From assembly GCF_002288325.1 (NCBI RefSeq), contig NZ_CP016780.1, positions 558,001-622,000 of the forward strand: a DNA stretch of 64,000 nt, in the 5' to 3' direction. This document shows, piece after piece, positions 26,624-28,779 of the stretch. This DNA comes from Candidatus Planktophila lacus (GTDB taxonomy: Bacteria > Actinomycetota > Actinomycetes > Nanopelagicales > Nanopelagicaceae). Both the position numbers and the translations under genes were made by a program. The notes beneath the pieces are model-generated. The model was not told the DNA's origin, made no database searches, and saw only the letters and a program-made list of their open reading frames with translations. Every line of letters begins with the position of its first letter. Position 1 is the first letter of the stretch.

Positions 26624-28063
26624 ATGCGTCGCGCGAAGATTGTCTGCACAATGGGTCCAGCCGTTGAATCACCCGAAAAAGTTCGTGAGTTGATTGCAGC
26701 CGGTATGAATATGGCTCGCCTCAATCTCTCTCATGGCGGCTATGAAGAACACCAGAGCCGACTTAATGAAGTCCGCGCAGCTGCGAAAGAGGCAGGAAAA
26801 CCTGTTGCGATTCTCGTAGATCTACAAGGACCAAAGATTCGCTTAGCTCGCTTTAAGGCCGGCCCACATGATCTATCTCGCGGAGATATCTTCACAATTA
26901 CTACTGATGAAGTAGAAGGCACTAAAGAGCGCGTCGGTACTACTTACAAAGGCCTACCTGGAGATTGCAAGCCAGGAGATCGCATTCTCATCGACGATGG
27001 AAAAGTTACCGTTGAAGTTACTGAGGTAAAAGGCAACGATGTTGTAACCAAAGTTATCGAGCCGGGCGCCGTTAGCAACAACAAAGGAATTAACTTGCCA
27101 GGCGTCGCCGTTTCAGTTCCAGCGCTCTCTGAAAAAGATAAAGAGGACCTTCGCTGGGGGCTAAATGCCGGCGCTGACTTCATTGCGCTTTCATTTGTGC
27201 GCAGCGCTGAAGATATTGTTGATGTTCATAAAATTATGGATGAAGTTGGTATCCGCGTTCCCGTAATTGCAAAGATTGAAAAGCCTCAGGCAGTTGCAAA
27301 CTTGCAGGAGATTGTTAACGCCTTTGACGGCATCATGGTGGCTCGCGGTGACCTCGGTGTTGAACTCCCGATTGAAGAAGTTCCTCTTGTGCAAAAGCAT
27401 TGCATCGAACTAGCGCGCGAAGCTGCTAAACCGGTAATCGTTGCAACCCAGATGCTTGATTCGATGATTACAAACTCTCGTCCAACTCGCGCGGAAGCAA
27501 CAGACTGTGCAAATGCAGTTCTAGATGGCGCAGATGCCTTGATGCTCTCTGGCGAAACATCGGTTGGCGAATTCGCTATCGAAGCTGTTCAAACTATGGC
27601 TCGCATCATCAGCCATACTGAAGAAGGCGGCATGGATATGATCCGCCCGATGAAATCAGCGCCTAAGACAAAGGGCGGTGCGATCACCAAGGCTGCAACT
27701 GAAGTCGGCGCAATTGTTGGCGCTAAATATTTGGTTACCTTCACGCAATCCGGAGATTCTGCGCGCCGCACTGCGCGACTTCGTTCTCCAATTCCGATCT
27801 TGGCATTTACCCCTGAAGTTGGCACATATAACCGAATGGCGCTGGACTGGGGAGTAGAACCAGAGTTAACGCCGATGGTTAAGCACACCGATGAAATGGT
27901 TATGCAGGCCGATACCCTCTTGATCAAATCTAAGCGCTGCGTTGAAGGTGAACTAGTCGTGATCGTCGCTGGTTCACCTCCTGGAATTCCAGGATCAACG
28001 AACGCTATGCGCGTTCACCGCGTGGGCGATGCCGTGAGTGGCGCTGCTCCTGCATACCGTTAA
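26624..28063 (+). CDS. pyk: Pyruvate kinase
   Basis: Final ATP-yielding step of glycolysis, converting PEP and ADP to pyruvate and ATP. 479 residues, the usual length. The opening RRAKIVCTMGPAVESPEKV, NMARLNLSHG, the active-site helix IAKIEKPQAV and the metal/phosphate region ARGDLGVELPIEEVPLVQK are all present. The C-terminal allosteric domain (about residues 345-479) is complete. It stands alone between gltD and a tRNA gene, with a predicted leaderless start. Confidence 0.98.
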   Translation: MRRAKIVCTMGPAVESPEKVRELIAAGMNMARLNLSHGGYEEHQSRLNEVRAAAKEAGKPVAILVDLQGPKIRLARFKAGPHDLSRGDIFTITTDEVEGTKERVGTTYKGLPGDCKPGDRILIDDGKVTVEVTEVKGNDVVTKVIEPGAVSNNKGINLPGVAVSVPALSEKDKEDLRWGLNAGADFIALSFVRSAEDIVDVHKIMDEVGIRVPVIAKIEKPQAVANLQEIVNAFDGIMVARGDLGVELPIEEVPLVQKHCIELAREAAKPVIVATQMLDSMITNSRPTRAEATDCANAVLDGADALMLSGETSVGEFAIEAVQTMARIISHTEEGGMDMIRPMKSAPKTKGGAITKAATEVGAIVGAKYLVTFTQSGDSARRTARLRSPIPILAFTPEVGTYNRMALDWGVEPELTPMVKHTDEMVMQADTLLIKSKRCVEGELVVIVAGSPPGIPGSTNAMRVHRVGDAVSGAAPAYR

Positions 28064-28102: not shown

Positions 28103-28175
28103 GCCTCGGTACTCCAACGGTAGAGAGGGCAGTCTCAAACACTGCATAGTGTCGGTTCGAATCCGACTCGAGGCA
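28103..28175 (+). tRNA. tRNA-Leu (anticodon CAA) with a short variable arm
   Basis: A 73-nt cloverleaf. The acceptor GCCTCGG pairs with TCGAGGC (one G-T at the bottom pair), with discriminator A73. The D arm has CTC/GAG with GG in the loop. The anticodon stem is GCAGT/ACTGC with loop CTCAAAC, giving anticodon CAA at 28134-28136, which reads UUG. The variable region is only ATAGT. The T arm is GTCGG-TTCGAAT-CCGAC. No CCA is encoded. A14, A15 with T48, and A73 agree with leucine identity, but leucine tRNAs normally have a long variable arm, so the 5-nt loop is unusual. The next gene's ATG starts 1 nt later. Confidence 0.85.
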
Positions 28176-28176
28176 C

Positions 28177-28779
28177 ATGACAACGACTAGTAGCGCGGAA
28201 AAGTCTCCAGTAAGAATTCTTGTAGCCGAGGATGAAGCGCTGATCCGTATGGACTTAGTCGAAATGTTGCGCGAAGCAGGTTATGAAGTTGTAGCAGAAG
28301 CTGCAGATGGTGCCCAGGCGATTGAACTCGCACAGTTACATAAACCAGATTTAGTAATTCTTGATGTGAAGATGCCGGTGCTGGATGGAATATCAGCAGC
28401 AGAAAAGATAATTGATATTGCACCAGTTCTTATGTTGACCGCATTTTCACAACGCGAACTCGTAGAACGTGCACGAGACGCCGGCGTTATGGCCTACGTT
28501 GTAAAACCATTTTCGATAGGTGACCTTGTGCCTGCAATCGAAATTGCAATTAGTAGACATATGCAGATGCGATCACTTGCCGATGAAGTTGCAGATCTTC
28601 ACGAGCGACTTGAAACTCGTAAATTGATTGATCGCGCAAAGGGAATATTGATGCAGGCCTTGAACCTCTCTGAACCTGAGGCCTTTTCTTGGATCCAGCG
28701 CGCTGCGATGGATCGCCGGCTGACCATGAAAGAGGTCGCCGCAGCCGTTATCTCCCCAGATGCTGTACCTGGCCACTGA
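28177..28779 (+). CDS. pdtaR: ANTAR-domain response regulator (PdtaR-like)
   Basis: 200 residues. The receiver domain (about 12-125) has acidic Glu18, Asp19 and Glu20, phosphoacceptor Asp63 in LVILDVKMP, Thr88 and Lys110 in VVKPF. The C-terminal ANTAR RNA-binding domain (about 140-195) shows LIDRAKGILMQALNLSEPEAF and an RRLTMKEVAAAVI ending. Such proteins act as antiterminators by binding paired hairpins in mRNA leaders; in mycobacteria PdtaR works with the kinase PdtaS. No kinase gene is adjacent. The start has to be ATG 28177 because the next in-frame ATG lies inside the receiver fold. That leaves 1 nt after the tRNA and no normal ribosome binding site. Confidence 0.92.
   Translation: MTTTSSAEKSPVRILVAEDEALIRMDLVEMLREAGYEVVAEAADGAQAIELAQLHKPDLVILDVKMPVLDGISAAEKIIDIAPVLMLTAFSQRELVERARDAGVMAYVVKPFSIGDLVPAIEIAISRHMQMRSLADEVADLHERLETRKLIDRAKGILMQALNLSEPEAFSWIQRAAMDRRLTMKEVAAAVISPDAVPGH

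Follow-up and report, generated by a model that had tools for sequence, protein, structure and literature searches.

A short-armed leucine tRNA fused to the start of a pdtaR-type gene in Candidatus Planktophila lacus, and its relatives in actinomycetes and phages

The window analysed here, a 64-kb stretch (64,000 nucleotides) of the complete, one-contig genome of the freshwater bacterium Candidatus Planktophila lacus (Nanopelagicaceae; 1.38 Mb), contains one tRNA gene, a tRNA-Leu(CAA), located between a pyruvate kinase gene and a response regulator gene that we take to be pdtaR. The features of the locus are as follows:

26624..28063, + strand: pyruvate kinase gene (pyk), upstream, 39 nt before the tRNA; named by its sequence and its pdtaR neighbourhood
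28103..28175, + strand: tRNA-Leu(CAA) with a short variable loop (class I shape) and no encoded CCA; ARAGORN and Rfam RF00005
28136..28138, + strand: anticodon CAA, which reads UUG
28146..28150, + strand: 5-nt variable loop ATAGT (A46, G47, U48), matching the NNAGY loop of the family described below
28176..28176, + strand: C74, the sole base separating A73 from the pdtaR start codon
28177..28779, + strand: pdtaR-type response regulator gene (receiver and ANTAR), whose start codon directly follows C74 of the tRNA

Positions 28103-28175 form an intact 73-nt tRNA gene, with ARAGORN and Rfam in agreement on its span and on the + strand (RF00005 score of 54.2 bits, gathering threshold 29, E 7e-9). 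Pairing is complete, with one G-U, in the acceptor, anticodon and T stems, and the D stem has three pairs and a C13.A22 mismatch. A preliminary description, made from the sequence alone, had reported a CAA anticodon with only ATAGT between the anticodon and T stems, as well as A14, A15-T48 and A73; both programs confirm the anticodon, and the loop and the three identity positions are present in the sequence as stated. The 5-nt arm falls short of the length that defines class II (variable arm of at least 10 nt), while a leucine anticodon and A73 are both present and the hinge identity set of A14, A15-U48, G18G19 and A20a is complete. The tRNA is not a chance resemblance, because a near-identical copy lies at the same place in all sampled Nanopelagicaceae.

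Forty tRNA genes were found in the genome, four of them for leucine, with variable arms of 5 nt (CAA), 5 nt (TAA), 11 nt (TAG) and 15 nt (GAG); the two short-armed ones, CAA and TAA, are the UUR decoders. No long-armed CAA or TAA tRNA-Leu is present among the 40 tRNAs of the complete genome, so that a second, class II tRNA-Leu(CAA), which the preliminary description had named as a finding that would count against its reading, is missing. When tRNAs were scored position by position, the combination of A14, a 13.22 mismatch with A22, A15-U48 and A73 occurred only in the four leucine tRNAs, all of which also carry YAG after G18G19. The C13.A22 mismatch is thus no defect but a leucine trait, because a 13.22 mismatch with A22, joined to A15-U48, YAG and A73, is confined to these 4 of the 40. 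Within the genome, the tRNA-Leu(CAA) is closest to the short Leu(TAA), at 69%, and then to Phe, at 56%; with this ranking and a core found only in leucine tRNAs, an origin from another isotype by anticodon change was rejected.

Leucine tRNAs of the cytosol are class II in textbooks, and the absence of the arm that defines them speaks for a tRNA charged with some other amino acid, or one that is suppressor-like or recoded; this is very unlikely, given the full leucine core, C2-G71 and A73 of the tRNA and the leucines that homologues carry at UUG sites. UUG accounts for 277 of the 1916 leucine codons in the open reading frames of the window, and when pyk and pdtaR were compared with those of other actinobacteria, 77% of the residues aligned to UUG sites were leucine, close to the value at CUN sites. 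Recoding of UUG was rejected on this basis, and the reassigned role that the preliminary description had offered as an option finds no support. Its other suggestion, that leucine identity rests on A73, A14 and A15-U48 without a long arm, agrees with the sequence and with published work on E. coli, in which A73, A15-U48, G18G19 and A20a are required for leucylation, and the long arm is dispensable (PMC9976931). C2-G71 is a known antideterminant for SerRS. The genome has a single leuS gene over the cut-off, with a match that reaches model position 842 of 843, and no second LeuRS dedicated to short tRNAs was found in it by this measure.

These features resemble those of bacterial class II tRNA-Leu of the E. 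coli type, with which the P. lacus tRNA shares A14, A15-U48, G18G19, YAG at 20-20a-20b, the A22 mismatch, A73 and C2-G71, but it lacks the long variable arm and has A9 and C13 instead of G9 and G13. Mitochondrial tRNA-Leu(UUR) likewise has a short variable loop in place of the long arm, and A73 and A14 are the features by which it is charged (PMC9976931), although it belongs to another organism and another LeuRS, whereas the P. lacus tRNA has a stable, canonical cloverleaf. A degenerate gene, whose one remaining use is as the leader of pdtaR, might be suspected from the direct fusion of the two, and seems scarcely credible when all helices are intact, the sequence is near-identical across Nanopelagicaceae and no other UUG-specific tRNA is encoded, even though UUG could also be read through wobble by the tRNA for UUA; with intact helices and a sole CAA copy, the pseudogene was rejected. 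By all tests that could be applied the tRNA is functional; leucine charging is predicted from its sequence, and we infer that it is charged in vivo. It would serve as an ordinary elongator, the sole UUG-specific leucine tRNA of the genome, presumably charged by the single bacterial LeuRS, an enzyme that in bacteria has no need of a long variable arm.

The preliminary description had proposed a lineage-specific leucine tRNA, and while the leucine assignment stands, the restriction to one lineage does not, with the short form spread through Actinomycetes and phages. A strict short-form pattern matched CAA tRNAs in 117 of 198 actinomycete genomes and TAA tRNAs in 84 of the 198, compared with a handful for the reversed control pattern. 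Throughout the class pdtaR adjoins a tRNA-Leu(CAA), and at 80 named pdtaR loci this tRNA was short in 60 and long in 20. It was short in all Nanopelagicaceae examined, and also at the loci of Kineococcus, Demequina and a Mycobacteriaceae genome bin. Streptomyces is divided: many have the short form, and others carry a long-armed tRNA in that position. Short leucine tRNAs were found as well on Streptomyces phages, cyanophages and plasmids, and 72 of 80 viral contigs fetched by a TAA pattern carried a real short leucine tRNA, the core being the same in nearly all of them. Outside the actinobacteria, plasmid pRUMAL01 of Ruminococcus albus has a short-loop tRNA-Leu(TAA) next to another Leu(CAA)-like tRNA. 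A short-variable-loop tRNA-Leu(TAG) has been reported in a mycobacterial tRNA cluster (PMC6582537); it is also actinobacterial, but is additional to a normal long-armed tRNA, whereas the short forms of P. lacus are the only UUR decoders and chromosomal core genes. The phage tRNA-Leu genes (TAA, TAG or CAA; Streptomyces phages, cyanophages and IMG/VR viruses) have the same core and variable loop, and differ in being supplementary tRNAs carried by phages. A search of open-access text found no description of a short-variable-loop leucine tRNA family in bacteria, and the short-armed tRNA-Leu is a widespread, little-noticed form.

The short tRNAs have in common A9, C13.A22, an NNAGY loop, A15-U48 or G15-C48, and A73, and the P. 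lacus tRNA-Leu(CAA) has every one of these features. Among 84 distinct short leucine tRNAs, A9 was present in 79, C13.A22 in 78 and A73 in all, and the 15-48 pair was A-U in 76 and G-C in 8, without exception, compared with G9 in 26 and G13 in 26 of 29 long leucine tRNAs. A tree of leucine tRNAs was built after removal of the anticodon and the variable arm (with U48 kept), leaving 66 columns in which the class-linked positions 9 and 13 were included. The short-armed tRNAs formed a clade with a bootstrap support of 85, in which the P. lacus tRNA was placed, and the class label changed once on the tree, compared with a mean of 23.5 and a minimum of 18 in 500 shuffles. If instead the long arm had been lost many times independently in actinomycetes, a 5-nt loop might itself force the same core (A9, C13, A46), and it is true that the positions that differ (9, 13 and 46) are those contacting the variable loop, and that both classes occupy the same pdtaR locus in Streptomyces. 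Such repeated loss is nevertheless improbable, in view of the one class change against 23.5 expected, and of the loop and T stem (ACAGT GTCGG) common to phage, cyanophage and actinobacterial members. The sequences thus point to a single, old family with one origin, which is likely but short of proof, as a tree of 66 columns is a short one and core positions linked to class are among them. In many actinomycetes, the decoding of UUG and UUA would have passed to members of this family, which phages carry too.

The junction of the tRNA with pdtaR is more unusual than the short arm, and we propose that it has a role in making the mRNA. Among 25 Nanopelagicaceae loci, the ATG or GTG of pdtaR begins one base after A73 (28175-28179 in the window) in 21, and the remaining four have a spacer between tRNA and pdtaR with a GAGG- or AAGG-type motif resembling a ribosome site. 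The start codon is secure, because several relatives have no other in-frame start ahead of the conserved protein. In the window, no Shine-Dalgarno sequence is possible for pdtaR outside the tRNA. The tRNA is co-oriented with pdtaR in Nanopelagicaceae, and mostly divergent from it elsewhere. A separate promoter for pdtaR may lie inside the tRNA, but a scan around the junction found no consensus promoter, nor a terminator.

Cleavage of Propionibacterium acnes tRNAs falls between C74 and C75, i.e., between the two Cs of CCA; this species has no clear RNase Z, and leaderless mRNAs are common in it (PMC3848588). RNase Z did not appear over the cut-off in the P. lacus genome either, where C74 is encoded in all 40 tRNA genes and the full CCA in only 13; C74 is also present in all 103 leucine tRNAs checked outside Nanopelagicaceae, in which CCA is mostly missing. 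The position of the pdtaR start codon fits a cut after C74, which would give an mRNA beginning exactly at that codon. By analogy with this other actinobacterium, we infer that the tRNA-Leu(CAA) gene became the 5' leader of pdtaR in Nanopelagicaceae, that the two would be made as one transcript, and that cleavage after C74 would free both the tRNA and a pdtaR mRNA starting at AUG or GUG. Genome compaction alone, by which the junction would contribute nothing to mRNA production, could also account for it in a streamlined genome of 1.38 Mb, in which two other tRNAs have the same arrangement, albeit shared with the nearest species only; we regard this as possible, if rather doubtful, since the exact one-base offset is kept in 21 of 25 loci with both ATG and GTG, and the loci without the junction have the ribosome-site-like spacer. 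A regulatory role, which the preliminary description had also raised, or one in processing is plausible, but on the ground of the fused start codon, which that description did not contain. The two other junctions of N73, C and start codon are at tRNA-Arg(TCT)-orn and at tRNA-Lys(TTT)-EamA-like transporter, and each was seen in only one of the relatives sampled.

We hold it highly probable that the tRNA is a functional, sole UUG-specific leucine tRNA, that it belongs to one short-loop family, and that it acts as a 5' leader for pdtaR in Nanopelagicaceae. More tentatively, and at a little under even odds, a single, partly phage-borne family may have displaced long-armed tRNAs as the decoders of UUG and UUA in much of the Actinomycetes, with the Nanopelagicaceae CAA member being a cleavable leader that produces a leaderless pdtaR mRNA. 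If so, the maturation of a tRNA would be coupled to a signalling gene, the pdtaR regulator. The junction, together with the invariant C74, opens to direct test how tRNA 3' ends are processed where no clear RNase Z exists, and whether leaderless mRNA is made by that processing. Cytosolic leucine tRNAs are treated as class II in a review of identity (PMC9976931). A class I form that is natural and widespread among actinobacteria, and that alternates with the long form at one Streptomyces locus, is a natural experiment bearing on which features LeuRS really reads and on the way in which tRNA genes are displaced.

Other odd tRNA-like genes were seen in Planktophila. Those with a Val anticodon combine an Arg-like D arm with T or G at position 37, and their anticodon arm is hypervariable. 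Each Planktophila genome has one to three of them, often separated by a few kb; they are possibly island or integration sites. A further tRNA-like gene with a Gly(ACC) anticodon has A73 and a Gln-like D arm, and across the genus its outer arms are conserved and its anticodon arm is variable and poorly paired.
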